From positions 1 to 43,410 of the forward strand of contig JAIXPC010000011.1 of the NCBI GenBank assembly GCA_027486415.1: 43,410 bases of DNA. The letters are read 5' to 3'. Origin of the DNA: Sphingomonadales bacterium (GTDB lineage Bacteria > Pseudomonadota > Alphaproteobacteria > Sphingomonadales > Sphingomonadaceae). The notes below the pieces were generated by a model, which did no database searches, was not told the DNA's origin, and saw nothing but the letters and a program-made list of their open reading frames with translations. The translations under genes and the position numbers were made by a program. Every line of letters begins with the position of its first letter. Within the stretch, counting starts at the first letter, position 1. This document shows positions 9,857-24,247 of the stretch, in pieces.

Positions 9857-10597
9857 ATGCGCAAATATCTGCAAACAGCCATCGTCGCCGCCGCGATCGC
9901 GGTGATGCCGTCGGCCGCCCACGCCATGCGGACGGCCTCGATCGTCAGCTTCACCGCCAACCAGTCTGGCCCGAACCTCACCTACACCGACAACGGTTCG
10001 TCGGGCTGGACGCTGACCACTGCCACGCCGAAGAACGTGCTGGTGAGCCTCGAGGATTTCGACGGCAACTTCGTCTCGGGCGTTGCCGCGCAGCTGAGCT
10101 TCACGGGCACCGGCACCGGCTTTGCCATGAACACCGCCGGCAATCTGTGGACGCAGATGTTCACCGGCGGTTCGGTGTCGTTCACGGCGGTCAATGCCGT
10201 CACCATCGGCAGCCGCAGCATCGCTGCCGGCGGCAACATCCTGACGCTCAATTTCTCCGGCGGCGACCTGTCGGCCGCGGTGCCCGGCACCTCGGGCAAC
10301 GCCCTGGTGTCGATCCCGGGTGACGGCTTCAGCAACGTGTCGAGCGGTTTCATCGATTTCCCGCCGGTCACGCTGACCGACTTCTCGATCAGCCTTGGCA
10401 ACGTTTCGCCGGGCTTCAGCATCGGGTCGGGCGGTCTGGGCACGCAGTCCAATGCCCGCTTCACCAATTTCACCGCGCGCGGTTCGGGCGATTTCACCGC
10501 CGCCGTGCCGGAACCGCAGACCTGGGCCATGCTGGTGCTGGGCTTTGGCCTCGTCGGCTTTGCCCGTCGTCGTCAGCTGCGGACGATTGCGGCCTGA
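9857..10597 (+). CDS. Exported PEPxxWA-CTERM sorting-domain protein
   Basis: The ATG at 9857 gives 246 residues with a classical signal peptide (MRKYLQTAIVAAAIAVMPSA, predicted cut after AHA). A purine-rich ribosome site (agaggag) lies 9 bases upstream. The mature part is Thr/Ser/Gly-rich, beta-strand-like and almost free of Cys, and I do not recognise a domain. The C-terminus is the sorting tag PEPQTWAMLVLGFGLVG followed by ARRR. This tag is recognised by an exosortase, which cleaves it and releases or anchors the protein at the cell surface, often in bacteria that make exopolysaccharide. A sigma-54 promoter and two palindromes lie upstream and a terminator follows. No exosortase gene is in the window. 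Confidence 0.88.
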   Translation: MRKYLQTAIVAAAIAVMPSAAHAMRTASIVSFTANQSGPNLTYTDNGSSGWTLTTATPKNVLVSLEDFDGNFVSGVAAQLSFTGTGTGFAMNTAGNLWTQMFTGGSVSFTAVNAVTIGSRSIAAGGNILTLNFSGGDLSAAVPGTSGNALVSIPGDGFSNVSSGFIDFPPVTLTDFSISLGNVSPGFSIGSGGLGTQSNARFTNFTARGSGDFTAAVPEPQTWAMLVLGFGLVGFARRRQLRTIAA

Positions 10598-10855: not shown

Positions 10856-11590
10856 ATGCAGATGAAGATGCTGATGGCCGTGGCCACGGCAGCCGTGCTG
10901 AGCACGGTGCCGGCAGCCGCCGCCGTTCCGCTGGTGAATTCGCCGATCACGGTGACGACAGCCGATATTGGCCGGGCGTTCACCTACAATTTCAATGGCA
11001 TCGTTGATGAAGTGACGCAGCCCGGACTGGCCGCTGCCATCACCTTCAAGCTGACCGGCGTTGCCGGCAACACCTGGACCTTTTCGGCAGACATCAACAA
11101 CAACCTGCCGGGAACGCCGGTCGCTGGCCGTATCACCAGCTTTGGCTTCAACAGCATGCCCGATATCACGGCGGTGACGCCCCTTTCGGGCCCGTTCATG
11201 AACGCCCAGCTTGATGGCAGCTTCCCGCAGACGGGTGGCGGCACCAGCATTGCCTTCTGCCTTGAAGATCAGGCGGGCGGCGGTTGCGGCGGCGGCGGCA
11301 ACGGCGTGTTCAACAACACGACGGCGCTCCAGACATTTTCGCTCACGCTGGGCGGCGCGCCGACGACCTCGGCAACGTTCAACAATTTCATCCTGCGCTG
11401 GCAATCCGTGTCCGGTCCGTTCAACGGCACCTCGGGCATCGGCATGGGCACCAATGGTGGTGGTGACGACGGTTTTGATCCGGGCGGCGGCGTCGTGCCG
11501 GAACCGGCGACCTGGGCGATGCTGATTGCGGGTTTCGGCCTTGTCGGCGTGGCATCGCGCCGTCGTCGCACGGCGGTGGTCGCATCCTGA
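10856..11590 (+). CDS. Exported PEPxxWA-CTERM sorting-domain protein
   Basis: The ATG at 10856 follows a strong ribosome site (aggagga, 5 bases away) and gives 244 residues. The signal peptide (MKMLMAVATAAVLSTVPAAA) is followed by a beta-rich domain with Thr, Asn and Gly. A Cys-bearing loop (FCLEDQAGGGCGGGG) and a Gly/Asp-rich linker (GGGDDGFDPGGG) precede the tag PEPATWAMLIAGFGLVG and a basic SRRRR end. The two Cys could form a disulfide in the periplasm. It shares the sorting tag and general build with the gene at 9857, but the mature domains are not obviously alike, so a recent duplication is not supported. It ends at a strong terminator shared with the converging gene at 11663. Confidence 0.88.
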   Translation: MQMKMLMAVATAAVLSTVPAAAAVPLVNSPITVTTADIGRAFTYNFNGIVDEVTQPGLAAAITFKLTGVAGNTWTFSADINNNLPGTPVAGRITSFGFNSMPDITAVTPLSGPFMNAQLDGSFPQTGGGTSIAFCLEDQAGGGCGGGGNGVFNNTTALQTFSLTLGGAPTTSATFNNFILRWQSVSGPFNGTSGIGMGTNGGGDDGFDPGGGVVPEPATWAMLIAGFGLVGVASRRRRTAVVAS

Positions 11591-12181: not shown

Positions 12182-14050
12182 ATGCTCTCGGTCCAGAATC
12201 TCGTCGTCCGCCTTGGCGGCCGTGCCATCATCGACGGGGCGTCGGCCACGCTGCCGCCGCGCGGCTGTGTTGGCCTGATTGGCCGCAACGGCGCTGGCAA
12301 ATCGACGATGATGAAGGTGCTGGCCGGCATCATCGAACCCGATGGCGGCAGCGTCGATCGCCCGCGCGGATCGCGGCTGGGCTGGCTGAAACAGGAAGCC
12401 CCGGCGGGGCTGGGCACGCCGTTCGAAACCGTGCTCGCCGCCGATACCGAACGCGCCGCCCTGCTGGCCGAGGAAGCGGCTGGTGCTGCGCCCGAACGCG
12501 TGGCCGACATTCACGAACGGCTGATCGCCATCGATGCCCACACCGCCCCGGCGCGGGCCGCGCGCATCCTTGTCGGCCTTGGCTTTGACGAGGAAATGCA
12601 GGGCCGCCCGCTCGACAGCTATTCCGGCGGCTGGCGGATGCGCGTGGCGCTGGCGGCGCTGCTGTTCACCCGGCCCGATGTGCTGCTGCTCGACGAACCG
12701 TCGAACCACCTCGATCTGGAATCGGCGCTGTGGCTGGAAAATTTCCTGAAATCCTATCCCGGCCTGATCGTGCTGATCAGCCACGAACGGGATCTGCTCA
12801 ACCGCGTGGCCACCATGATCCTGCACCTCGAAGGCGGCAAGGTGCAGCTTTACACCGGCAATTACGACAGTTTCGAACGCCAGCGCGCCGAACGCCTGGC
12901 CCAGCTGGAAGCCGCGCGCACGGCGCAGGCCCAGCAGCGCGCCAAGCTGCAGGATTATATCGCCCGCAATTCCGCCCGCGCGTCGACCGCCAAGCAGGCG
13001 CAGAGCCGCGCCAAGGCGCTGGCCAGGATGCAGCCGGTGGCTGAAGCCGCCGCCGATCCGTCGATGAAGTTCGATTTCCCCAGCCCGCAACCGTTGCGCC
13101 CGCCGCTGGTGACGCTGGATCATGCCGACGTTGGCTATGATGGCCGGGCGATCCTCAATGATCTCGACATTCGCCTCGATCCCGATGACCGGCTGGCGCT
13201 GGTGGGCCGCAACGGCAACGGCAAGACGACGCTGGCCCGCCTGATGATCGGCCAGTTGCCGACGATGGCCGGCAGCCGGGCCGCCTCGGGCAAGCTGAAG
13301 GTGGGTTACTTCACGCAATATCAGGTGGAAGAGCTGGATGGCGACGCCACGCCGGTGCTGATGATGAGCCGGGCCATGAAGGGGGCAACGCCGGGCGCGG
13401 TGCGCGCCCAGCTGGGGCGGTTCGGCTTCACCGGGCCGGTGGCGGAACAGCGCATCGGCACCATGAGCGGCGGCGAAAAGGCCCGGCTGGCGCTCGCGCT
13501 CGTCACCCGCGACGCGCCGCACCTGATCGTGCTCGACGAGCCGACCAACCACCTTGATATCGACAGCCGCGAGGCGCTGGTGCAGGCGCTGGCCGGTTAT
13601 GAAGGCGCCGTCGTCGTCGTCAGCCACGATCGCCATGTGATCGAGGCCAGCGCCGATCGGCTGGTGCTGGTCGATTCCGGCCGCGCCAGCCCGTTCGATG
13701 GCAGCATCGACGATTACGAGGCGCTGATTCTGGGCGGTGCCGGCAGCAGCAGCACGGCCGCCGCGCCGGCCGCAAAGGCACCGCGCATCGATCCCAAGGA
13801 AGCCCGCCGCCAGGCCGCCGCCCGCCGCGAAGCCGCCAAGCCGCTGCGCCAGGCCATGCTGAACGCCGAAGCGCAGATGAACCGCCTGATCGCCGAGCGC
13901 GAGGCCATCGACGAGCAGATGACCCACGCCCCGGCCGACATCACCGCCCTGATGCAGCGCCGCGGCGTGCTTGATGCCGGCATCCAGGCCGCCGAGGACG
14001 CCTGGGCCGCCGCCAGCGAAGCCTATGACGCGGCGGTGGCCGCCCCGTAA
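12182..14050 (+). CDS. ABC-F family ATPase (YheS/ABCF3-like)
   Basis: The 622-residue protein has two ABC ATPase domains in one chain and no membrane segments, which defines ABC-F proteins. Walker A motifs are GRNGAGKST (about residues 36-44) and GRNGNGKTT (about 342-350). Signatures are YSGGWRMRVALAALL and MSGGEKARLALAL, and Walker B motifs are LLLLDEPSNHLDLE and LIVLDEPTNHLDID. The linker between the domains is rich in Gln and Arg. A C-terminal charged helix (about 560-620) is predicted to form a coiled coil. ABC-F proteins bind the ribosomal E-site and relieve stalled translation; some protect against antibiotics. The short inter-domain linker and coiled-coil tail point to the housekeeping YheS-like group rather than a resistance type. 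The 3' end overlaps the converging hydrolase gene by 28 bases. Confidence 0.93.
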   Translation: MLSVQNLVVRLGGRAIIDGASATLPPRGCVGLIGRNGAGKSTMMKVLAGIIEPDGGSVDRPRGSRLGWLKQEAPAGLGTPFETVLAADTERAALLAEEAAGAAPERVADIHERLIAIDAHTAPARAARILVGLGFDEEMQGRPLDSYSGGWRMRVALAALLFTRPDVLLLDEPSNHLDLESALWLENFLKSYPGLIVLISHERDLLNRVATMILHLEGGKVQLYTGNYDSFERQRAERLAQLEAARTAQAQQRAKLQDYIARNSARASTAKQAQSRAKALARMQPVAEAAADPSMKFDFPSPQPLRPPLVTLDHADVGYDGRAILNDLDIRLDPDDRLALVGRNGNGKTTLARLMIGQLPTMAGSRAASGKLKVGYFTQYQVEELDGDATPVLMMSRAMKGATPGAVRAQLGRFGFTGPVAEQRIGTMSGGEKARLALALVTRDAPHLIVLDEPTNHLDIDSREALVQALAGYEGAVVVVSHDRHVIEASADRLVLVDSGRASPFDGSIDDYEALILGGAGSSSTAAAPAAKAPRIDPKEARRQAAARREAAKPLRQAMLNAEAQMNRLIAEREAIDEQMTHAPADITALMQRRGVLDAGIQAAEDAWAAASEAYDAAVAAP

Positions 14051-14682
14051 GCCTTGCAGGCTGCCGCCCGGTAAGGCGCCAGCGCCGCATCGATCCGGGC
14101 ATAGGCAGCGGGGTTGAAGTGGACATGATCACTGCGCCCGTCCGCGCCGATCAGGGCGCTGGTGTCGAGCCTTGTCACGCCCGCCGGCAGGCGTGTTGCC
14201 GCCTCGATCGCCGCCATCGCCGCCGCCTGCCGCCCGCCGATCAGCAGCGCCCGCCACCACGGCTGGTTGGCCGGCGGCACCAGCCCCAGCACGACCACGC
14301 TTGCGCCGCTGGCCTGCCCGGCGCGGGCCAGCGCGGAGATGCGGGCGGCACTGCGGGCGATTTCGGCGCGGCGGCGCTCTCCCCCCAAAAAGGCGATGCC
14401 GGCCGCATCATTGCCGCCGGCGTTGATGATGATCAGGTGAGGGCGGACGGCGGCAATGGCGGCGCGGGCCGGGCCGGCGATGGCGGCGGTGGTGGCGCCG
14501 GGGAACCCCATGCGTTTCAGCTGCCATCCCGGCGGCGGTCGCAGCGGCCAGCGCGATATGCCGCTGTCGCCAACCAGCAGCGCGACACAGCGGGCAGCGT
14601 TGGTCTGCACGATCCGCGCAGGGGCCGGCGGGGCATCAAGATTGGTCACCCGGATGGCAGCATAGGCCAGCGCCGCCAGCAC
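14023..14682 (-). CDS. SGNH/GDSL hydrolase, uncertain start
   Basis: The protein has the SGNH blocks: VGDSGISRW (catalytic Ser), the Gly in FPGATTA, INAGGND (Asn) and SDHVHFNP (Asp/His pair). SGNH enzymes remove or transfer acyl groups on glycans, lipids or esters. The only standard start codon after the LuxC-like stop (14720) is GTG at 14682. It falls in the middle of a hydrophobic stretch, because in-frame codons upstream continue as RWLALLALTPV before LAALAYAAIRV. The real product is therefore probably longer, with an N-terminal anchor, starting at a non-standard codon or affected by a base error. It closes the minus-strand LuxC/LuxE cluster, which suits an esterase that edits or completes the acyl modification. 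Confidence 0.75.
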   Translation of the reverse strand: MLAALAYAAIRVTNLDAPPAPARIVQTNAARCVALLVGDSGISRWPLRPPPGWQLKRMGFPGATTAAIAGPARAAIAAVRPHLIIINAGGNDAAGIAFLGGERRRAEIARSAARISALARAGQASGASVVVLGLVPPANQPWWRALLIGGRQAAAMAAIEAATRLPAGVTRLDTSALIGADGRSDHVHFNPAAYARIDAALAPYRAAACKAYGAATAAS

Positions 14683-14719
14683 GGGCGTCAGCGCCAGCAG
14701 GGCCAGCCAACGGAACGCC

Positions 14720-15925
14720 CTACACCTCGATGGCGACGATGCGGGTCAGCGCGGTGAGCAGGTTGACGCCATCCCACACATGACCAAAGGCCAGCGCCTG
14801 GCCGAAATTGACCACCCGATCGATGCCATGTGGTCGACCCAGCGTCATGAATTCACGCCAATCGTCAGCGGAGACCCCGAAACTGGCGATGGTCTGCCAA
14901 TCGCGGGCGACCATGGCGGCAAGGTCGGACAGGTCATCGATGCGCCGTTCGACGAAGAAGCCATCGCCCGCGGTGCGCGTCAGTCGACCCAGGTCGGGTA
15001 CGGTTGTCACCCGCAGGCGATAATCGGCAGTATCCCGGTGCTGCGCCGGCCCGGCCGCCGCAAGCATTTGTTCTGCCAAGAGTTTGTCGACAGCCGCGCG
15101 CGCCGCGAACGGCTCGCCCGCCGCCGCGATGGCGCTCTCCACCAGCGGCCAGAATGACGCCTGCGCCGCCGCAACCACATCGGCATCCCCCCGCCAGAAC
15201 AAGGCCAGCGGCGATGAGCAGGCCTGCTGCCCGAAGGTGATGGCATCCAGGGCAAATCGCCGTGCCTGTTCCGGCTGGTCCGTCGCCGCTGCCCAAGCTC
15301 CCGCGTCGATCACGGCGGCGGACACTTTCGACGGGAAGGTCAGCTCGGTCGCATGCGGCGGCAACGGGCTGGCCCGCACCTCGCGTACCGTCTCGTCCCC
15401 GCCCCAGATCACCCGCATGTCCACCCGTGCCGACAGCGCATCATTCACTGGTTTTTCAGCGGGATAGCGCACGACAGCCAAGCAATCCCGCACCTCGGCC
15501 GGCAGCCCCGCCAGCGCCTCGTTCAGCAGTTGCAGCAGCAGTTGCAACGCATCGGATTCGCGCCCCGAAACCCTCACGATGTTCACATTGCCCGCCAGCA
15601 CCGACAGCAATGCCGAATAAAGGAACATCGTGTCGACATTGCCCGGCGCGATGTGCAGCACCGCCCCCCGCGCCACCTGCGTGTGCCCGTCCAGCGTCTC
15701 GGCCAGCCGGGCCAGATTGGCGCTGCGCGCCCAATAGGCCAGCGCCACCATCTCCGGCCGGCTGCGCGCTTGTGGATGGGCGAGGATCGCCTTTCTGACG
15801 GCATCGACCAGCGCCAGCCGTTCCGGCGCGAAGGGGGCTGCGCGCGGGGCGGCCAGCGTCGCGGCAATGCTGCCGCCGGCGGGCGCCATCACGCTGATCT
15901 TGTTGTTGATATCTGCAGTCAGCAT
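14720..15925 (-). CDS. Acyl-CoA/acyl-protein reductase, LuxC-like
   Basis: The 401-residue protein matches the LuxC acyl-CoA reductase family (aldehyde dehydrogenase fold). In luminous bacteria LuxC reduces an acyl group passed from LuxE to a fatty aldehyde with NADPH. Visible signs are the HIAPGNVDTMFLYS and NIVRVSGRES segments of the nucleotide-binding region, and the probable catalytic Cys236 in FGQQACSSPLALFW. The start is the ATG at 15925, whose first base is the last base of the LuxE-like stop codon (TGATG), so the two are translationally coupled. No luxA or luxB is present in the window. The aldehyde is therefore probably used in another reaction, such as modification of a sugar or lipid. 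Confidence 0.85.
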   Translation of the reverse strand: MLTADINNKISVMAPAGGSIAATLAAPRAAPFAPERLALVDAVRKAILAHPQARSRPEMVALAYWARSANLARLAETLDGHTQVARGAVLHIAPGNVDTMFLYSALLSVLAGNVNIVRVSGRESDALQLLLQLLNEALAGLPAEVRDCLAVVRYPAEKPVNDALSARVDMRVIWGGDETVREVRASPLPPHATELTFPSKVSAAVIDAGAWAAATDQPEQARRFALDAITFGQQACSSPLALFWRGDADVVAAAQASFWPLVESAIAAAGEPFAARAAVDKLLAEQMLAAAGPAQHRDTADYRLRVTTVPDLGRLTRTAGDGFFVERRIDDLSDLAAMVARDWQTIASFGVSADDWREFMTLGRPHGIDRVVNFGQALAFGHVWDGVNLLTALTRIVAIEV

Positions 15926-17013
15926 CACGCCGCCCGGCTGGTGTGCGTATCGGAACAGCCGCGCATTTCGGCCGCCGGGATGCGGCCCAGCACCCGGAAG
16001 GTCTTGCCCCTGCGGCCGCACGGGCAGTCATCCTCGCCGGTCAGCACGCCGCGATCCTCGGTCAGCAGGCTGTGGCCGGGGTAGGAGAGCGGGATGGCCG
16101 ACACGACCTGGATGATGCCCTCGGCGCCGACGGGCAGCACCCGCCAGTCGAGCGGATCGCGGACCAGCACATCGGCAAAGCCCGGTGCGTGCAGGCGGCC
16201 ATGCTCGCACTCCATGAACACCGATCCGACCTGTTCGACCATGCCATAGAAATTGTGCACGAATTCGAACCCGGCACGATGGCGGGCGACGGATTTGAAA
16301 TGATCGTTCGAAACCGCCTCATCCTCCAGCTTCTTCCAGCCGCCGGAATGGATCAGCACGCTGCCCGGAAAATCGAGCGTGATGTCAGCCGCTTGCAAGG
16401 CCGAGAGGAAATACTTCCACACCATGAAAGTGAAGCCGAAGGCAAAGATCGGCTTGCCGGCGTGCGTCTCGGCAAAGGCGCGGATGGCATCCAGGTTCAG
16501 CCCCATGTCCTCATCGTTCAGCGCGTATGTGTGCGCTCGGCCATAGGTCATCATGCCCAGGATGCCGGCCCCGCGCGCCGAGAAGCTGGTGCGATCACGG
16601 ACCACGCCGGGGTGATCGATGATCAGCATCGGCCGGCGATCCTTGCCGATGAAATTGGTGGTGATGGCGGCCAGCGCCCGCGATTGGGCCTGTGCGGTGG
16701 CGGTGTCGAGGAAGATGCGCGACGGCACCTGGCCCGTAGTGCCGGACGAGGTCAGCGTCTTGAAAATCTGATCGTCGGGGATCGACTTCAGCGCCAGCTC
16801 CTTGAAAAGCCTGACCGGCAGGAACGGCACGTCACTGATGCCGGCCGGCACACCCGCGCGCTCGGCGGCGAGGATACGGCCATATTCCGGGCAATTGGCG
16901 GCGTGATGTGCCGTCAGTTCTACCAGTGCCGCACCAAGCAGTCGGCCCTTTTCCGCCGCGTCCAGCGCGAAGGGGTGGGCCGCCAGCACCGCGTCGCGTG
17001 CGTCCATGCTCAT
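15925..17013 (-). CDS. Acyl-protein synthetase, LuxE-like
   Basis: The 362-residue protein belongs to the LuxE family, which activates a fatty acid with ATP, holds the acyl group on its own Cys and hands it to LuxC. Key features are TLTSSGTTGQVPSRIF (adenylate-forming loop), the FVHNFYGMVEQVGSVF block, the DCPCGRRGKTFRVLGR motif and a C-terminal RGCSDT. The Cys at residue 353 in that last motif is at the place where LuxE carries its acyl-accepting Cys. The ATG at 17013 is chosen because it overlaps the upstream ligase stop (ATGA). Neighbours are an ACP, an AMP ligase and a LuxC-like reductase, so it may take its acyl group from that ligase/ACP pair instead of a free fatty acid. Confidence 0.85.
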   Translation of the reverse strand: MSMDARDAVLAAHPFALDAAEKGRLLGAALVELTAHHAANCPEYGRILAAERAGVPAGISDVPFLPVRLFKELALKSIPDDQIFKTLTSSGTTGQVPSRIFLDTATAQAQSRALAAITTNFIGKDRRPMLIIDHPGVVRDRTSFSARGAGILGMMTYGRAHTYALNDEDMGLNLDAIRAFAETHAGKPIFAFGFTFMVWKYFLSALQAADITLDFPGSVLIHSGGWKKLEDEAVSNDHFKSVARHRAGFEFVHNFYGMVEQVGSVFMECEHGRLHAPGFADVLVRDPLDWRVLPVGAEGIIQVVSAIPLSYPGHSLLTEDRGVLTGEDDCPCGRRGKTFRVLGRIPAAEMRGCSDTHTSRAA

Positions 17014-18386
17014 CCCGCGGCCTCCCACGCCTGGCCCAGCGCGCCATAAAGCAGTTTGCCCGACGCGGCGCGGGGCAGGGCCCCCTGTTTCACCGCCAGC
17101 CCGCGCGGGGGGAAGGAGAAGGCCGCGACCAGCGCGGCCCGTACCGCGTCTGCCTCGCCGCCTTCGATCAGCACGCGCAACTGGTCATCCTGCCCGAACG
17201 CCACGCCGGCCACATCGATGCTGGCCAGATGCGCGTCGATATCGTCCAGGTTCACGCGGGTTCCGAACAGCTTGATCATGCGGCTGGCGCGGCCGGTGAT
17301 GGTCAGGATGCCAGCATCATTGCGGGCGGCAAGATCGCCCGTCATCAGCACGCCGCCCAGCTCGTCGCCGCGCGACAGATCATCGGCATCCAGTGCATAG
17401 CCCATCATCACGCCGGGCGACGTGCAGCGCATCTCGCCTGCCACACCGGGTTCGCCGATCACCGCGCCATCCGGCCCGATCAGATCGATGGTCACGCCCG
17501 GGATCGGCAGGCCGATGGCACCGGCATTGCCGGCCAGATGCTCCGGCGGCAGCCAGGTCAGGCGCGGGCCGGCTTCCGTCTGGCCATACATGGTGATGAA
17601 GCGCCGGCCGTTAGCGGCAGCCCATTCGGCATAGCGCGCCGCCACCGGCGCAGGCAGCCTGCCGCCGGCCTGGGTGAGCGTGGTGAGCGTCGGCGTCGCC
17701 AGCCGGTCCAGCCCCAGCCGGCGGATCGCGTCATAATGGAAGGGCACGCCCGACAGGCTGGTGGCCCCGCGCGCTGTCAGCCCGTCCCAGAATTCGGCCT
17801 GCATCACGCCGCGGGCAGTCACTTCGATGCAGGCGCCCACCAATGCGTGGCTGTTGATGATGCTCATGCCATAGGAATAGCTGGTGGGCAGGCACAGCCA
17901 CGGGCGCTCCCCAGCGGTCAACTCCAGATAGGCGGCAATCGCCTTGGCGTTGGCGAGGAGGGCGGCGGCGGTGAAGCGCGCCAGCTTGGGGCTGCCGGTG
18001 CTGCCCGAGGTGGACAGCAGCACGGCCAGATCGGGGTGGAGCGTGGTGCCGCCCGGACCGGGGGCGAGGGAATGGCCACCCTGTGGATCGATGATGGCAT
18101 CGGGGCGATAGCGTGCCACCAGCGCTGCCAGCCGCTCGGCCGGCAGATCATGCTCGATTGCCAGCACGGCATGGCGGCTGGCCAGCAGCGCCAGCCACGC
18201 AGCGACCGAGGACGCCGTGTTGGCGGTGCGGACGAAGACGAGACTGCGTTTGCCCAGAGCGGCATCGACCTGCGCCGAAAGCGCACCGATATCGGAATAG
18301 GTCAGGACATCGCCATCATCGCCGCGCACCGCCGGTGCCACGCCGTGGCCGGCGATGATCTGCGCCCAGGGGTTGCCGCCGGTCAT
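17010..18386 (-). CDS. AMP-forming acyl ligase (ANL superfamily), likely ACP-charging
   Basis: The 458-residue protein is a member of the acyl/aryl-CoA ligase and NRPS adenylation superfamily. Motifs are the P-loop STSGSTGSPKLA (residues 125-136), MYGQTEAGP, TGDLAARNDAGI, the hinge-region GRASRMIKLFGTRV and the C-terminal catalytic Lys444 in PRAASGKLLY. It is about 50-100 residues shorter than many acyl-CoA ligases, closer in size to DltA, which loads an amino acid on a carrier protein. It lies 16 bases after the gene for a 76-residue ACP and overlaps the LuxE-like gene. The inferred job is to activate a carboxylic acid and load it on that ACP. The substrate cannot be read from the sequence. 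Confidence 0.85.
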   Translation of the reverse strand: MTGGNPWAQIIAGHGVAPAVRGDDGDVLTYSDIGALSAQVDAALGKRSLVFVRTANTASSVAAWLALLASRHAVLAIEHDLPAERLAALVARYRPDAIIDPQGGHSLAPGPGGTTLHPDLAVLLSTSGSTGSPKLARFTAAALLANAKAIAAYLELTAGERPWLCLPTSYSYGMSIINSHALVGACIEVTARGVMQAEFWDGLTARGATSLSGVPFHYDAIRRLGLDRLATPTLTTLTQAGGRLPAPVAARYAEWAAANGRRFITMYGQTEAGPRLTWLPPEHLAGNAGAIGLPIPGVTIDLIGPDGAVIGEPGVAGEMRCTSPGVMMGYALDADDLSRGDELGGVLMTGDLAARNDAGILTITGRASRMIKLFGTRVNLDDIDAHLASIDVAGVAFGQDDQLRVLIEGGEADAVRAALVAAFSFPPRGLAVKQGALPRAASGKLLYGALGQAWEAAG

Positions 18387-18402
18387 GGTGCGGCGGCCGC
18401 GA

Positions 18403-18633
18403 TCAGGCCGTCACGTCATATTTGGCCAGGATCTCGCGCACCTTGGCCACGCTCGACATGGCGACAATATCGTCCGCGTCCAGCATGATCTCGTAATTGT
18501 CCTCCAGCGCGGTCACCAGCACCATGTGGGCGACCGAATCCCATTCCTTGATCGACTGGTAGGCCAGATCATCGGTGACACTGGCGGCATCGATCATCAG
18601 CGATTCGGCAAAAACATCAGCAAGCGGTTTCAT
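18403..18633 (-). CDS. Acyl carrier protein of the LuxC/LuxE cluster
   Basis: The 76-residue acidic protein has the carrier-protein fold, with the phosphopantetheine-attachment Ser33 in EWDSVAHMVLV. The usual DSL is DSV here. Helix IV-like sequence VAKVREILAKY follows. It is separate from the fatty-acid AcpP, whose attachment motif is ADSLD-like, so it serves one pathway. The ligase downstream is 16 bases away, consistent with a dedicated pair. Upstream there is an 85-base gap with a palindrome and AT-rich stretch, which may contain a second promoter. A partner phosphopantetheinyl transferase is not in the window. Confidence 0.85.
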   Translation of the reverse strand: MKPLADVFAESLMIDAASVTDDLAYQSIKEWDSVAHMVLVTALEDNYEIMLDADDIVAMSSVAKVREILAKYDVTA

Positions 18634-18682
18634 GATGGGGCGTCCGCAGATAAAGGAAGGTAAAATTCAATAACCGATGGGT

Positions 18683-18704
18683 TGGCGCGGAAGCAAGCGC
18701 GCCA
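18683..18704. other. Hairpin and AT-rich gap between the SDR and ACP genes
   Basis: tggcgcg and cgcgcca form a 7-bp stem with an 8-base loop. An AT-rich stretch lies next to it at about 18655-18680, between the hairpin and the ACP gene. No T-run follows the stem on the minus strand. The gap of 85 bases is the largest within the cluster and may mark an internal promoter for the ACP-to-SGNH half. Confidence 0.35.
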
Positions 18705-18718
18705 CCGGTCGACCCGGG

Positions 18719-19462
18719 TCACATCGCCATCGCGCCATCAACACCGATCACCTGCCCGCTGATGTAACGGGCGCCATCGCCGGCTAGGAACAGCACCAGC
18801 GGAGCGACATCATCAGGCTGGCCGCCCCGGCCCAGCGCGATGCGGTCGACAAGTGCGCCAAGCTTCTCGGCGGGGATACCGGCGGTCATGTCGGTTTCGA
18901 TATAGCCAGGGGCGACGGCATTCACGCGGATGCCGCGCGCGCCAACCTCGCGCGCCAGGCTGAGGGTGAGGCCAATCACGCCGGCCTTGGCGGCACCATA
19001 GGCGGTGTGGCCCGGATAGCCGACGCGGCCGATGATGGAGGTGAGGTTGATGATCGATCCGCCGCCACCGCGCGCCATCAGCCGCACGGCATATTGGCAG
19101 CAGCTGAGCACGCCCGACAGGTTGATCGCCAGCGTATCGGCCATCAACTGCGTGCTGGTCATCTCGATCACGGCATCCTTCAGCATACCGGCGTTGTTGA
19201 CCAGGATGTCGAGCCGCCCGGCCTGTTTCTGGATGGCCATGAAGGCGGATTTCACCGCGGCGGCATCGGCCACGTCGAAGGGCAGGGGGTGCAGACGATC
19301 GGCGCAGCCGCTGCTGGCGATCATCCCGGCCACGGCAGCCTCGCTGCGGCCGCCGACGAACACGGTGGCGCCGGCGCCGGCCAGCGCCAGCACGATGGCC
19401 CGGCCGATGCCGCGCGTGCCCCCGGTGACGAGCGCGACCCGCCCGGAAAGTTCGCCTGCCAC
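18719..19462 (-). CDS. Short-chain dehydrogenase/reductase, FabG-like
   Basis: The 247-residue protein has the classical SDR features: nucleotide-binding TGGTRGIG at 14-21, NNAG, the catalytic Ser in LTSIIGRVG, YGAAK (Tyr/Lys pair) and the C-terminal GQVIGVDGAM. Its closest type is 3-oxoacyl-ACP reductase. In this cluster it may reduce a 3-oxo group on the ACP-bound acyl chain, giving a 3-hydroxyacyl product before transfer. The stop lies 85 bases before the ACP gene, and the acyltransferase gene is 4 bases upstream, so the SDR is in the same transcript as the upstream genes. It is not the housekeeping FabG, which is normally next to fabD and acpP. Confidence 0.88.
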   Translation of the reverse strand: MAGELSGRVALVTGGTRGIGRAIVLALAGAGATVFVGGRSEAAVAGMIASSGCADRLHPLPFDVADAAAVKSAFMAIQKQAGRLDILVNNAGMLKDAVIEMTSTQLMADTLAINLSGVLSCCQYAVRLMARGGGGSIINLTSIIGRVGYPGHTAYGAAKAGVIGLTLSLAREVGARGIRVNAVAPGYIETDMTAGIPAEKLGALVDRIALGRGGQPDDVAPLVLFLAGDGARYISGQVIGVDGAMAM

Positions 19463-19466
19463 CGCC

Positions 19467-19970
19467 TTACTCCGCTGCGGCGGCAGGGGCCGCGGCCGGA
19501 GCGGCGGCCTCTACGGCGCGCTTGCTCTCGCGGTCGAGGATCAGGCCCCATTTGCCGGTGACAATGCCGGTTTCCAGCACGCGCGCCGGATTGCCGAACA
19601 CGATGCTGCCCGGCGGCACGTCGCGCATCACCACGCTGCCCATCGAAACGATGCTGCCATCACCCACCGTCACGCCCGGCATGATGATGCTGTGCGCGCC
19701 GATGCTGCACCGGCTGCCGATCCGGGTGTCGATGTGCAGGTTGCGCGTCATGTCGTGTGACAGGATGGTGGCGCCGAACACGATGGCCGTGTCCTCGCCA
19801 ATGTGGATGCCGGCGGGGTTGGTCTTGTCGAGCTTGGCCGAAAAGCTGACGGCGCTGCCCTTGCCGATGTTCATGCCCCACACGCTGTTGAAGTACCACC
19901 GCCGCCATTCCATGATGGCGTTGCGAAAATCGCGGCGCAGCCGGGCCAGGGTGTTCTTGCGCTTTGCCAT
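19467..19970 (-). CDS. Hexapeptide-repeat acyltransferase (CatB/LbH type)
   Basis: The protein (167 residues from ATG 19970; a GTG at 19976 that overlaps the upstream stop is the alternative) has a left-handed beta-helix core: repeated I/V-G-x steps such as IHIGEDTAIVFGA, RIGSRCSIGAHSIIMPGV and VGDGSIVSMGSVV. It then has the DVPPGSIVFGNPARV end typical of this group. Such enzymes transfer acetyl or other acyl groups to sugars. The N-terminal ~35 residues are basic and helical and could bind a membrane or partner. The C-terminus is a low-complexity Ala/Pro tail. In the cluster it is the best candidate for transferring the ACP-linked group to a sugar, since it lies 4 bases from the SDR gene and next to the FkbM-type gene. 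Confidence 0.85.
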   Translation of the reverse strand: MAKRKNTLARLRRDFRNAIMEWRRWYFNSVWGMNIGKGSAVSFSAKLDKTNPAGIHIGEDTAIVFGATILSHDMTRNLHIDTRIGSRCSIGAHSIIMPGVTVGDGSIVSMGSVVMRDVPPGSIVFGNPARVLETGIVTGKWGLILDRESKRAVEAAAPAAAPAAAAE

Positions 19971-19972
19971 GG

Positions 19973-20770
19973 TCACTTGTGCCGGAACATGGTCACGAAA
20001 TTGCGCCGCTCCATCGTGTGGGTGGCGGCCAACGGGTTGGTTTCAAACGGATATTCCACCACGACGAAATCAATCTTTTGCGACAGTTCGGCCGGGATCC
20101 GGCTGGTGACAGCGGCTTCCATCGTTTCGATGTCGATCTTCAGCGTGTTGATGCGGCCGTGCCTGGCGATCACGTCGGCCAGCATCTCGTTGCTGTCGGC
20201 GCATGGCACCTCGATCCAGGTGCCGGTGTCGCGTCCAACACCGCCATAACGACCGGTCGGCTCCCAACCGAACTGCACCATGCCGTTTTCGGTGCCCACC
20301 GCCGTTTCGTGCAGGGTCACCCGGTCACCGAACTGGGCCAGGTTCTTCTTCAGCCGCTCCACGTTGCGCGGCACGGGTTCGTGGCAATAGATCACCGAAT
20401 CCGGCCGGCGTGACAGGAACCAGGCCGCCGAAATCCCGATGTTCGATCCGAAATCGACGATCACCTGGCCGGCTTCCGGCACATCATAATCGCCGCGCAG
20501 GAAGATCTCGTTGATGGTCTGCACGTCGTCGGGGGAATAGGTGGTCAGCGTGATCGGGCCCTGCGGCGTTTTCACGGTGATATCCGCCGGATACTGCCCA
20601 CCGTTCGAGACATAACGCTTCAGAAAATCGATGGGGGCATCCACCCGTGCCAGCGCATTGGCGGCGGCAACATAGTGGCGACGCTCGAACAGGGCCTTCA
20701 GGATGACACTGGCCGACCGCCTGTGGCGTACCACGGAATCAAACGATTGTTCGGTCTCGCCCGTCTGCAT
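19973..20770 (-). CDS. FkbM-family methyltransferase
   Basis: The 265-residue protein contains the SAM-binding FkbM fold: VIVDFGSNIGISAAWFL is motif I, YCHEPVPRNVERLKKN the acidic loop, and LKIDIETMEAAV the second metal/SAM-side loop. FkbM-type enzymes methylate hydroxyl groups, including those on sugars and polyketides, and are frequent in surface-polysaccharide loci. The ATG at 20770 is favoured because a gggag ribosome site lies 6 bases upstream; a longer frame to 20812 lacks one. Its stop is 2 bases before the next gene's ATG. It follows the flippase after a 66-base gap. Confidence 0.85.
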   Translation of the reverse strand: MQTGETEQSFDSVVRHRRSASVILKALFERRHYVAAANALARVDAPIDFLKRYVSNGGQYPADITVKTPQGPITLTTYSPDDVQTINEIFLRGDYDVPEAGQVIVDFGSNIGISAAWFLSRRPDSVIYCHEPVPRNVERLKKNLAQFGDRVTLHETAVGTENGMVQFGWEPTGRYGGVGRDTGTWIEVPCADSNEMLADVIARHGRINTLKIDIETMEAAVTSRIPAELSQKIDFVVVEYPFETNPLAATHTMERRNFVTMFRHK

Positions 20771-20836
20771 CGCACACTCCCAAGGAACCGCAGGCTTGGG
20801 GCAGCGGAACAATTGTTGTCAACAAATAACCGCGCA

Positions 20837-22138
20837 TCAACCTGTTGCCGAATCTACGCGGGGGTAAAGGATGCGCCGCACCAGCCACCAGCCATGCGCC
20901 ACACGCAGCACGTGGCCGGCGGCATAGGCAACGGCCAGCCCGGCCATGCCCAGCGCCGGTACCAGCAGCAGCGCCAGCACCAGCATCAGCCCGGCGGAAG
21001 CGACCAGCACCGGCAACGTGTCGCGGCTGCGGCCGGCCATGGTGATCACCGCGCCCGATGCACCGGCCAGGATGGCGATCATGTTGCTGCCCACCAGCCA
21101 CTGCAGCAACGGCGCCGTGTTGGCGAAATCCGGGCCAAACAGGAATTGCATGATCGGCTGCGGCCAGATCAGCAGCGGCAGCGCCACCGGCAGGCTGACG
21201 GCCAGTGTCGCCCAGCGGTTGCGGCGCAGACGGCGGTGCGCGGCTTCTGGCTTGCCTTCGCGCAGGTCGCCGGCCACGTTGGCCGAAATCATCATCTGTG
21301 CCGTGGTGTGGATCACCGCGAACGGCATCGCCAGCTGCCACGCCGCACGAAACGCCCCGGCATCGCCGGCATCGCCCAGCGTTCCGGCCAGGAATTGCGG
21401 CAGCCACTGGCCAAAGAACATCAGGAAGGAAATCACCATCATCGGTGATCCTTCGCGCCACGGGGAGGGCGGCGGCGTTTCGGCAGCACTGCCCCAGTCG
21501 CGCATCTGCTGCCACACCAGCCAGAACAGCACGGCCATGGTCGCGATCAGGCAGGTGGTGGCAGCCAGCACCGCCGTCGTCGCCCCGATCTGCCCGCCGG
21601 CCAGCAGCACGCCTCCCAGCCCCAGCGCCAGCGGCACCATGAACAGCCCGTCAAAGGCCTGCGCCCGCACCGGATTGCCCAGCCCGCGCACGATGCCCAG
21701 GCCCATCAGATACAAGGCGTTGGCCGCGACAAAGCCCGTTGCCGCGATCAGCGCGCCATCCTGTGCCGCATCCAGCCCGGCCTGCCCCAGCGCCCACACG
21801 CCGCCGGCAAAGGCCAGTGTGATCGCTGCGGCCAACGGCGCCACAAAGCGCAGGTAATGGCCGACATGGTGCCTGGCCGTCGCCTTGTCGCCCAGCCGCA
21901 GATGGGACGCCACCTCGCGCAGGGCGAGCTGGTCGCAGCCGACAATTGCCAGGATGGAGACCAGCTGCGCCGTCTGGATGGCCATGGCATAACTGCCCAA
22001 CACATCGGCGCCGCCGGCCCGCGCCAGCAGCAACGTCACCACGAAACCGGCGGCGATATTGCCGCCCTTGATGCCCATCACGCTGGCAAAGCGCAGGCCC
22101 GGCGCGATCAGCGCCCGCCAGGGCCGCGCGTCACGCAT
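20837..22138 (-). CDS. Polysaccharide/lipid flippase (Wzx/MOP-superfamily)
   Basis: The 433-residue protein is almost entirely hydrophobic, with about 12 predicted transmembrane helices, and matches the polysaccharide-export (MOP/Wzx-like) fold. The start (FASVMGIKGGNIAAGFVVTLLLARAGG) and the middle block with MMISANVAGDLREGK are typical. Such proteins move undecaprenol-linked oligosaccharides across the inner membrane. The first 8 bases overlap the parE stop region, so it is expected to be co-transcribed with parE. It heads a cluster of sugar and acyl modification genes, yet no glycosyltransferase or polymerase is next to it, so the glycan it carries is assembled elsewhere. Substrate unknown. 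Confidence 0.88.
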   Translation of the reverse strand: MRDARPWRALIAPGLRFASVMGIKGGNIAAGFVVTLLLARAGGADVLGSYAMAIQTAQLVSILAIVGCDQLALREVASHLRLGDKATARHHVGHYLRFVAPLAAAITLAFAGGVWALGQAGLDAAQDGALIAATGFVAANALYLMGLGIVRGLGNPVRAQAFDGLFMVPLALGLGGVLLAGGQIGATTAVLAATTCLIATMAVLFWLVWQQMRDWGSAAETPPPSPWREGSPMMVISFLMFFGQWLPQFLAGTLGDAGDAGAFRAAWQLAMPFAVIHTTAQMMISANVAGDLREGKPEAAHRRLRRNRWATLAVSLPVALPLLIWPQPIMQFLFGPDFANTAPLLQWLVGSNMIAILAGASGAVITMAGRSRDTLPVLVASAGLMLVLALLLVPALGMAGLAVAYAAGHVLRVAHGWWLVRRILYPRVDSATG

Positions 22139-24122
22139 CGATGGCGTCGGCCTCGATCGACGTGGCGTGGCTCTGGATGAAGTGGAAGCGATGTTCGGGG
22201 TTGCGCCCCATCAGCCGTTCGACGAGGTCGGCCACGTCGGCCCGGCCATCCACGTCTTCGGGCAGTTTCACCCGGATCAGGCTGCGCCGCGCCGGATCCA
22301 TGGTGGTCTCCTTCAGCTGCGCCGGGTTCATCTCGCCCAGGCCCTTGAAACGGCTCACTTCCACCTTGGTCTTGCCGGCAAACACCGTCTTCATCAGCTC
22401 GGCCCTGTGGGCATCGTCGCGGGCATAGGCGACGGTGCCGCCCGCCGCGAGGCGATAAAGCGGGGGCTGTGCCAGATACAGGCGGCCATCGCGCACCAGC
22501 CCCGGCATCTCGCGGAAGAAGAAGGTCATCAGCAGCGTCGCGATATGGGCGCCGTCCACGTCGGCATCGGTCATGATGACGATGCGTTCATAACGCAGGG
22601 CTTCCGGGCTGTACTTGTCGCGCGTGCCGCAACCCAGTGCCTGGATCAGGTCGCCAATCTCGTTGTTGCCGCCGATCTTGGCGGTGTTGGCGCTGGCGAC
22701 GTTCAGGATCTTGCCGCGGATCGGCAGGATGGCCTGGGTGTTGCGATCGCGCGCCTGCTTGGCACTGCCGCCGGCGGAATCGCCTTCGACGATGAACAAT
22801 TCGGTGCCCACCGCGTCATCCCGGGCGCAGTCGGTCAGCTTGCCGGGCAGGCGCAGCGATGATTTGCTGGTCGCCGTCTTGCGCTTGACCAGCGCTTCCT
22901 GCCGCCGCCGCAGCCGGTCTTCCATCCGCTCGACCACGAATGCCAGCAGGCTCTTGCCGCGCTCGCCGCTGGCCACCAACCAGTGATCGAAATGATCCTT
23001 GATGGCGTTTTCCACCAGCCTTGTCGCTTCCGGGCTGGTCAGCCGGTCCTTGGTCTGGCTCTGGAACTGCGGGTCGCGGATGAACAGCGACAGCATGATC
23101 TCGGCACCGGCAAACACGTCCTCGCCGGAAAGATCGGCGGCGCGCTTGTTGCCGGTCAGTCCGGCGAAACTCTTCAGGCCGCGGGTCAGTGCCAGGCGCA
23201 GGCCGGCTTCGTGCGTGCCGCCATCGGGGGTGGGAATGGTGTTGCAGTAAAAGCTGGCCGATCCTTCGCCATATTGCGGCCAGGCACAGGCCCATTCCAC
23301 CGCGCCCATCGGCTTGCCATCGGGGCCGGCGGCGAGATCGGCCCTGCCGGCAAACAGGTCGGGCACCACCAGCGGCCGGTTGTCGAGCCGTTCCTTCAGG
23401 TGATCGGCAAGGCCACCGGGGAAGGTGAAGACGGCGCTTTCCGGGATGTCGCCGCCAGCCAGTTCGGCCGCGCAGCGCCAGCGGATCTCGACACCGCCGA
23501 ACAGATAGGCCTTGGACCGCGCCAGCTTGTAGAGCCGCGCCGGCTTGAAGCGGGCATCCTCGCCAAAGATTTCGGCATCGGGGTGAAACTTCACGCTGGT
23601 ACCGCGGCGGTTGGGCGTCGGGCCCAGCTCCTCGATCTTGCCTTGCGGGATGCCACGCGAATAGCGCTGGCGATACAATTGCTTGTTGCGCGCGACTTCC
23701 ACCACCGTCTCGTCGGAAAGCGCGTTGACCACGCTGATGCCCACCCCGTGCAGGCCTCCGCTCGTGGCATAGGCCTTGCCGCTGAACTTGCCGCCCGAAT
23801 GCAGCATGGTCAGGATCACCTCCAGCGCCGACTTGTCGGGAAAGCGCGGGTGCGGATCAACCGGGATACCGCGGCCATTGTCGGTGATGGTCAGGCTGCC
23901 ATCGGCGGCCAGTTCGACCTCGATGCGGCTGGCGTGGCCGGCCACGGCTTCATCCATGGCGTTGTCGAGCACTTCGGCGGCGAGGTGGTGCAGTGCGCGC
24001 TCGTCGGTGCCGCCGATGTACATGCCGGGGCGGCGGCGGACGGGCTCCAGCCCCTCCAGCACCTCGATATGGCTGGCATCATAATCGGCAGAGCTTTGCG
24101 TGGCGGCGAACAGATCGGACAT
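22131..24122 (-). CDS. parE: DNA topoisomerase IV subunit B
   Basis: The 663-residue protein (ATG at 24122; a GTG six bases upstream is the alternative) is the ATPase subunit of topoisomerase IV, which separates daughter chromosomes. Visible features are the GHKL ATPase blocks (AAEVLDNAMDEAVAG, DNGRGIPVD and GGLHGVGISVVNALS) and the TOPRIM region with EGDSAGGSAKQ, the metal DxD in DADVDGAHI, and the ILPIRGKILNV stretch. The length and the missing GyrB-specific insertion favour ParE. Because its 3' end overlaps the flippase gene by 8 bases, an essential gene stands at the head of the surface-modification cluster. A 519-base gene-free stretch lies upstream. Confidence 0.92.
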   Translation of the reverse strand: MSDLFAATQSSADYDASHIEVLEGLEPVRRRPGMYIGGTDERALHHLAAEVLDNAMDEAVAGHASRIEVELAADGSLTITDNGRGIPVDPHPRFPDKSALEVILTMLHSGGKFSGKAYATSGGLHGVGISVVNALSDETVVEVARNKQLYRQRYSRGIPQGKIEELGPTPNRRGTSVKFHPDAEIFGEDARFKPARLYKLARSKAYLFGGVEIRWRCAAELAGGDIPESAVFTFPGGLADHLKERLDNRPLVVPDLFAGRADLAAGPDGKPMGAVEWACAWPQYGEGSASFYCNTIPTPDGGTHEAGLRLALTRGLKSFAGLTGNKRAADLSGEDVFAGAEIMLSLFIRDPQFQSQTKDRLTSPEATRLVENAIKDHFDHWLVASGERGKSLLAFVVERMEDRLRRRQEALVKRKTATSKSSLRLPGKLTDCARDDAVGTELFIVEGDSAGGSAKQARDRNTQAILPIRGKILNVASANTAKIGGNNEIGDLIQALGCGTRDKYSPEALRYERIVIMTDADVDGAHIATLLMTFFFREMPGLVRDGRLYLAQPPLYRLAAGGTVAYARDDAHRAELMKTVFAGKTKVEVSRFKGLGEMNPAQLKETTMDPARRSLIRVKLPEDVDGRADVADLVERLMGRNPEHRFHFIQSHATSIEADAIDA

Positions 24123-24247
24123 GGCCACTGTATAGGGCGGCAGGTCGCGGCCCGCCAGACGCCTGTTCAGCCCGGCTCCCTGCGCGCTTTTGCCCCGCGG
24201 CTACGCGATTTCCCCCATTGCGGCGCTTCATTGTGCAGTGCAATAGA

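Follow-up and report, generated by a model that had tools for sequence, protein, structure and literature searches.

What are genes for LuxE- and LuxC-like enzymes, known from luminescence, doing beside genes for a carrier protein, an acyltransferase and a flippase? The locus that raises this question lies at 14,023 to 22,138 of a 43,410-nucleotide stretch of DNA, hereafter the window (contig JAIXPC010000011.1), from a Sphingomonadales bacterium whose genome (G000) is 2.7 Mb long and 97.5% complete. From gene families and gene context we propose, with about even confidence, that the locus supplies the acylation and flipping steps of a surface-polysaccharide pathway, the acyl being a short hydroxyacyl. 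Taken separately, it is likely that the genes provide a carrier-bound acyl group for a surface glycan; that this acyl is a short hydroxyacyl is a tentative assignment, somewhat short of even.

A conserved five-gene cassette

Families were assigned with Pfam and NCBIfam profiles and scored against NCBIfam cut-offs. PseB/C/F/G/H/I, NeuD, Maf, ABC-F, RmlA/C/D, Wzc, BY-kinase, KPS genes, MurJ and the AsnB- and NadE-like genes were named by eye, without a family call unless stated. An earlier sequence-only reading had described nine tightly packed minus-strand genes at this place. All nine are there and open, their families are borne out by Pfam and NCBIfam, and the spacing between them, -8 to +85 nt, confirms the packing (Table 1). 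The arrangement is not due to chance, because relatives keep the same order: flippase (FLIP)-FkbM-hexapeptide acyltransferase (HEX)-short-chain dehydrogenase (SDR)-acyl carrier protein (ACP)-AMP ligase (LIG)-LuxE-LuxC is identical in G167 and G214, and G113, a Sphingomonadaceae metagenome-assembled genome (MAG), has FkbM-HEX-ACP-SDR-LIG-LuxE-LuxC. FkbM is 84-86% identical in the first two and 57% in the third; the SGNH hydrolase has no match at any of these three cassette loci.

A scan of relatives with one genome per species gave at least 506 LuxE relatives among 590 candidates, from which the best 80 loci were kept. The ligase was counted in 78 of these, LuxC in 77, and ACP and SDR in 72 each, some of the gaps being contig ends, whereas FkbM was counted in 4 and the flippase in 3, all of the latter in this genus (Sandarakinorhabdus). 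The conserved core is ACP, SDR, AMP ligase, LuxE and LuxC, together with an acyltransferase. One conserved operon of nine genes, as first envisaged, was rejected because SGNH, flippase and FkbM vary between loci: the co-occurrence search that the sequence-only reading had called for recovered the core but not all nine families. Its idea of an acyl group that is built on its own carrier and destined for a surface glycan survives in outline; the nine genes as the single unit behind it do not.

In the window all five core genes are adjacent, on one strand and in the order ligase-LuxE-LuxC. SDR precedes ACP, as in six gammaproteobacterial loci (L047, L054, L058, L061, L064, L074). Hosts of the cassette include Alpha-, Beta- and Gammaproteobacteria, Campylobacterota, Bacillota, Actinomycetota, Bacteroidota, Ignavibacteriota, Thermodesulfobacteriota and Nitrospirota. 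Presumed catalytic residues are intact throughout: the cysteine of LuxC (73/73), the C-terminal cysteine of LuxE (75/76, with one gap), the serine of ACP (72/72), Ser, Tyr and Lys of SDR (75/75 each), the C-terminal lysine of the ligase (78/78) and the histidine of HEX (12/12). Within the family Sphingomonadaceae, LuxE matches at E 0.001 occur in 15 of 298 genomes, seven of them with a protein at least 38% identical over most of its length; G000 has one copy.

Several cassettes have particular surroundings. That of Thermaurantiacus tibetensis (L021/L031) is decayed: HEX and LuxE are separated by a transposase-like gene (by eye), LuxE has an internal stop, and an SGNH gene adjoins HEX. In a Sphingomonadaceae MAG (L022, 1-1040) and in L041 the cassette adjoins bchI of the photosynthesis gene cluster (by eye), which we judged to be a local neighbour, rejecting a link to photosynthesis. 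A Coriobacteriia cassette has a phosphopantetheinyl-transferase-like gene (by eye) directly after LuxC (L082, 12287-12718). In two Paenibacillaceae loci (L052, L065) the cassette accompanies DegT, Rml, a DPM-type GT2 and a small multidrug-type membrane gene, a set that recalls an undecaprenyl-linked amino-sugar route (all by eye).

Acyltransferases beside the cassette

Genes for PseI, PseG and PseH (by eye) were seen in 33 to 35 of the 80 loci. On the 5' side the immediate neighbours of the cassette comprise 70 usable genes, among them at least 29 for GNAT and 13 for hexapeptide proteins; directly 3' there are 68 genes, and six of the 46 on the same strand, which were scanned, encode hexapeptide proteins. 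Three acyltransferase clusters comprise 57 genes in 78 loci, and 51 of these genes are immediate neighbours of the cassette, against 8.4 expected (0 of 5000 permutations reached this number, although related loci are not independent); 50 of the 78 loci have such an adjoining gene. The partner groups also track the LuxE tree, with 5 changes versus 18.4 when shuffled (0/200). HEX-type cassettes form one sphingomonad clade (support 100/99) with one row of no group inside it. Given this adjacency and the agreement with the LuxE tree, the cassette is best read as a putative acyl supply for an acyltransferase.

Precedents and proposed chemistry

By analogy, the closest understood pathway is the tetronate operon of Vibrio cholerae O1 and not bioluminescence. 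The V. cholerae genes are RfbK, RfbL, VC0250, RfbN and VC0252 (PMC12208996, PMC9201469, PMC4772473), and the likeness, at family level and by gene names, is that carrier, ligase, LuxE/LuxC and acyltransferase occur together. That pathway acylates a surface glycan, the role proposed here: tetronate is the N-acyl group of perosamine, and deletion of wbeL abolishes the O1 antigen (PMC3441752). The two differ in that V. cholerae has an iron alcohol dehydrogenase, whereas the nine genes of the window include none and have an SDR instead, and in that the V. cholerae acceptor is perosamine, whereas G000, G167 and G214 gave no full-length match to a DegT aminotransferase (PF01041 matches are partial only).

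The cassette itself has already been described from flagellin islands, with a lipid as its conjectured product (PMC7874193, PMC4875605); this bears out what the sequence-only reading said of LuxC/LuxE sets with ACP and SDR in flagellar-glycan loci. Group II flagellin glycosylation islands of Aeromonas carry orf1-3, luxE and luxC, the same five families, with pseH directly upstream of orf1 (PMC7874193). They have linked pse genes and the GT2 gene fgi-1 where the window has HEX, FkbM and flippase; the order of SDR and ACP is swapped in the window, and no NeuB match (PF03102) was found in G000, G167 or G214. Enterobacterial islands hold Acp, FabG, CaiC, LuxE and LuxC, again the same families, and some also hold FkbM methyltransferases; their flagellar context and local glycosyltransferases are not seen at the window locus (PMC4875605). 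In the literature searched we found no paper tying the flagellin-island cassette to tetronate. Shewanella sfmABCDE was rejected as a characterised cassette; in the passages on it, only SfmC, a 3-oxoacyl-ACP reductase, resembles a cassette member.

The window enzymes are related over most of their length to luminescence LuxC and LuxE (PDB 7xc6), but their partners are a carrier, a ligase and an SDR. Bioluminescence was rejected because scores lie far below the long-chain equivalog cut-offs (LuxC 35.5 vs 750, LuxE 56.3 vs 550). A family scan found no luciferase among the nine genes; the genome was not searched for one.

In the mechanism that we propose, LuxE would act on a small (di)carboxylic acid, activating one of its carboxyls and handing it through the LuxE cysteine to LuxC, which would reduce it to an aldehyde; SDR would reduce the aldehyde to an alcohol, and the AMP ligase would load the remaining carboxyl onto the carrier protein. 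HEX would then acylate a sugar in an undecaprenyl-linked repeat unit with this hydroxyacyl, a tetronate-like group such as dihydroxybutyryl; FkbM would methylate, and the Wzx-like flippase would export the unit. With LuxE/LuxC and the dehydrogenase turning a carboxyl to an alcohol, and ligase and carrier activating the product, every cassette enzyme gets a role. Aeromonas AH-3, a cassette-bearing Group II strain, has a 376.14 Da pseudaminic acid derivative that is kept in an fgi-1 mutant (PMC7874193); Pse5Ac7Ac with one acetyl replaced by C4H6O3 has a calculated mass of 376.148. A. caviae Sch3, to which we assign no island group, carries plain Pse5Ac7Ac (PMC9290775).

Exchange of acyl modules behind parE

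The window locus lies between parE and an ABC-F gene. We found parE in all 24 genus genomes searched and read the interval behind it, at least partly, in 22 (G312 and G315 were left out). Five intervals hold the cassette, four of them through to LuxC (G000, G167, G214, G317) and one as FLIP-FkbM followed by a contig end (G319). The sister genome G306 has FLIP-HEX-ACP-GNAT-ligase, with no SDR, LuxE or LuxC; its FLIP, HEX and ACP are 73%, 57% and 44% identical to those of the window, and its DltA-like ligase passes the cut-off for amino-acid adenylation (331.8 vs 317.4). G306 has thus kept flippase, HEX and carrier but differs in its acyl-building enzymes, which is a module swap. In G106 only a 3' fragment of LuxC is left. 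A pair of other hexapeptide genes occupies the interval in four genomes (G020, G313, G307, G318), two intervals are empty (G316, G252), and seven hold unrelated genes, as do two more in which no ABC-F match was reached (G309, G320). FLIP relatives of 56-73% identity stand at this site in five other genomes.

SGNH relatives (45-48% identity) occur at the same site in G020 and G313 beside the two other hexapeptide genes, and SGNH therefore looks like an older resident of the site, independent of the cassette. It is missing from this place in the three other readable Sandarakinorhabdus cassette loci (L018, L019, L024; L027 ends at LuxC).

Further combinations of HEX with a carrier were found. G219 and G252 each encode a HEX relative joined to a phosphopantetheine domain, and G040 has a third such fusion (by eye). 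The protein of G219 ends in a part resembling LnmK (E 5.9e-5), which is a methylmalonyl-CoA:ACP acyltransferase/decarboxylase, and a second HEX in that genome is followed by AsnB-like, carrier and NadE-like genes (by eye). G262 and G101 have HEX-carrier-ligase-SDR runs (SDR by eye). Among the 27 HEX matches read, three places being listed twice, a carrier is fused or close in 9 (L155 and L173/L215 included) and not in 18; outside LuxE/LuxC loci, 7 of the 8 matches with 49% identity or more have one (L156 has none, and the carrier of L159 is on the other strand). HEX alone was rejected as a marker of the cassette, since HEX matches at E 1e-15 occur in 24 of the 298 family genomes against 7 for LuxE at 38% identity or more. 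The predicted HEX model was too poor to use (pLDDT 51.8).

These cases suggest, still tentatively and below even confidence, that HEX represents a family of small hexapeptide acyltransferases taking their acyl from a dedicated carrier, and that sphingomonads exchange the adjoining acyl-building module, diversifying their surface polysaccharide. Exchangeable modules would be LuxE/LuxC (hydroxyacyl), an amino-acid ligase with a GNAT (N-acylaminoacyl), an LnmK-like fused carrier (propionyl-type) and AsnB/NadE-like genes with a carrier; the transferase and, within this genus, the flippase would stay while the module changes.

A candidate acceptor

A MOP fold for FLIP is suggested by its MatE match (27.0 bits) and by a moderate-confidence model (mean pLDDT 64) whose best PDB match is WzxE (E 1.2e-5), followed by MurJ. 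A GT2 linked elsewhere to HEX modules has a 55% relative in G000 (C13:91761-92750), in a locus with rml genes, an EpsD-like gene, two GT2 and export genes. This locus scores above the cut-offs for exosortase V (XrtV; 375 vs 313), EpsI type V (258 vs 228) and undecaprenyl-phosphate glucose phosphotransferase (487 vs 411), and lies about 65 kb from the cassette on the same contig. The glycosyltransferases of the pathway are probably supplied in trans from there. In the exosortase-V polysaccharide regions of G000, G214, G167 and G306 no flippase match of note was found (best E 0.34, short). The transferase of the polysaccharide locus is present in all six genomes with a parE-linked FLIP, and G106 (99% complete), which has the LuxC stub, has no match for transferase (E 1e-30), GT2 (1e-20) or FLIP (1e-8). 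The exosortase-V exopolysaccharide is the likeliest acceptor, at a little less than an even chance.

Just past the ABC-F gene the window encodes two PEPxxWA-CTERM proteins (9857-10597 and 10856-11590), the second a "cistern family PEP-CTERM" protein; both are presumed exosortase-V clients.

Weighing the proposal

Several observations weigh against this reading. On the side of the chemistry, in 28 of the 78 loci no member of the three acyltransferase clusters adjoins the cassette, and most distant HEX relatives have no carrier nearby. The 376 Da match comes from one strain, and the isomer O-methylglyceryl (C4H6O3) fits equally. The SDR scores as FabG, which suits a 3-hydroxyacyl-ACP at least as well as aldehyde reduction. 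It might do the work of FabG and turn an activated 3-oxoacid into a carrier-bound 3-hydroxyacyl (e.g. 3-hydroxybutyryl), with LuxE/LuxC as an acyl relay or making a separate aldehyde and HEX still transferring to the glycan; a Pseudomonas syringae flagellin does bear a 3-hydroxybutanamido sugar (PMC3958885). We consider this unlikely: both LuxC and LuxE keep their cysteine and their genes nearly always lie together, so reduction seems essential, and no ketosynthase is among the nine genes.

On the side of the acceptor, the link between hydroxyacyl cassette and exosortase-V polysaccharide is correlative, and the co-absence in G106 is one case. The transferase occurs in 22 of the 24 genus genomes, most without a cassette, and parE-linked FLIP in only six; GT2 occurs in 16 of 19 genomes searched, cassette-less ones among them. 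Sphingomonas trueperi and S2M10 have the cassette without GT2, and the GT2 match of Sphingobium DEHP117 is partial, at 36%. Distant FLIP-like genes (16 in 15 genomes) are within 14 kb of the transferase in only three cases: those of G252 and G309 lie inside the polysaccharide locus, and that of G310 adjoins the transferase. The other 13 lie elsewhere. A whole-genome PF01943 search of G000 gave one match, on contig C14, presumably MurJ, and missed FLIP itself at a threshold of E 0.001; other flippases in G000 are therefore possible. Deletion of a predicted Wzx was silent in another Sphingomonas, according to passages of PMC11340318. With no NeuB and no full-length DegT in G000, the acceptor is not of the amino-sugar kind of the precedents, and a pseudaminic or DegT-type acceptor was rejected for the three cassette genomes searched (G000, G167, G214).

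The same absences bear on the idea that the cassette decorates flagellin or a KPS-type capsule in trans instead of the exosortase-V polysaccharide. G000 does have a 722-aa flagellin and a KPS-like capsule locus (capsule genes by eye), but no modification genes were seen around the flagellin (L112, 7433-9601; by eye), and ABC-type capsule export needs no Wzx flippase; we regard this idea as improbable. About as improbable is the suggestion in the Aeromonas and enterobacterial papers (PMC7874193, PMC4875605) that the cassette provides a "liposugar" with a fatty acyl or a long-chain fatty aldehyde, given the LuxC and LuxE equivalog scores and an AH-3 linking sugar of only 376 Da (PMC7874193).

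Genes of the window

Coordinates are collected in Table 1. The likelier starts are 17013 for LuxE (a 4-nt overlap with the ligase), 20770 for FkbM and 19970 for HEX; that of SGNH is uncertain.

Table 1. Genes at the locus and its flanks, with supporting matches (bits unless E is given).
Gene	Coordinates	Strand	Evidence and remarks
ABC-F ATPase (by eye), other flank of swap site	12182..14050	+	
SGNH/GDSL hydrolase	14023..14682	-	PF13472 43.4; hydrophobic N-terminus; outside conserved core
LuxC-like acyl reductase	14720..15925	-	PF05893 111.3; PDB 7xc6 reductase E 1.2e-8 (profile A1); Cys236
LuxE-like acyl-protein synthetase	15925..17013	-	PF04443 169.8; PDB 7xc6 LuxE E 6.9e-18
AMP-forming ligase (LIG), presumed carrier loader	17010..18386	-	PF00501 121.7
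Acyl carrier protein (ACP)	18403..18633	-	No Pfam match; weak NCBIfam ACP matches; 4'-phosphopantetheine Ser33
FabG-like short-chain dehydrogenase (SDR)	18719..19462	-	NF009466 FabG 235.4 vs cut-off 222
Hexapeptide acyltransferase (HEX)	19467..19970	-	PF00132/PF14602; His74 conserved
FkbM-family methyltransferase	19973..20770	-	TIGR01444 60.0 vs cut-off 37.7
Wzx-like flippase (FLIP, MOP superfamily)	20837..22138	-	MatE 27.0; ATG overlaps parE stop
parE, one flank of swap site	22131..24128	-	

Implications

As far as the literature searched goes, the breadth of the cassette, the tendency of acyltransferases to abut it, the HEX-carrier fusions, the exchange of acyl modules at one site and the possible link to an exosortase-V polysaccharide are new. 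The LuxE/LuxC cassette occurs in hundreds of genomes, and many of the loci read are surface-glycan loci, flagellin islands included. The tetronate precedent, the adjoining acyltransferase and the natural module swap turn an open annotation into a testable proposal, and they suggest that acyl groups other than acetyl may reach bacterial glycans from a modular source. If the exchange proposed for the sphingomonads is true, it would be a plug-in system tagging one glycan with different acids.

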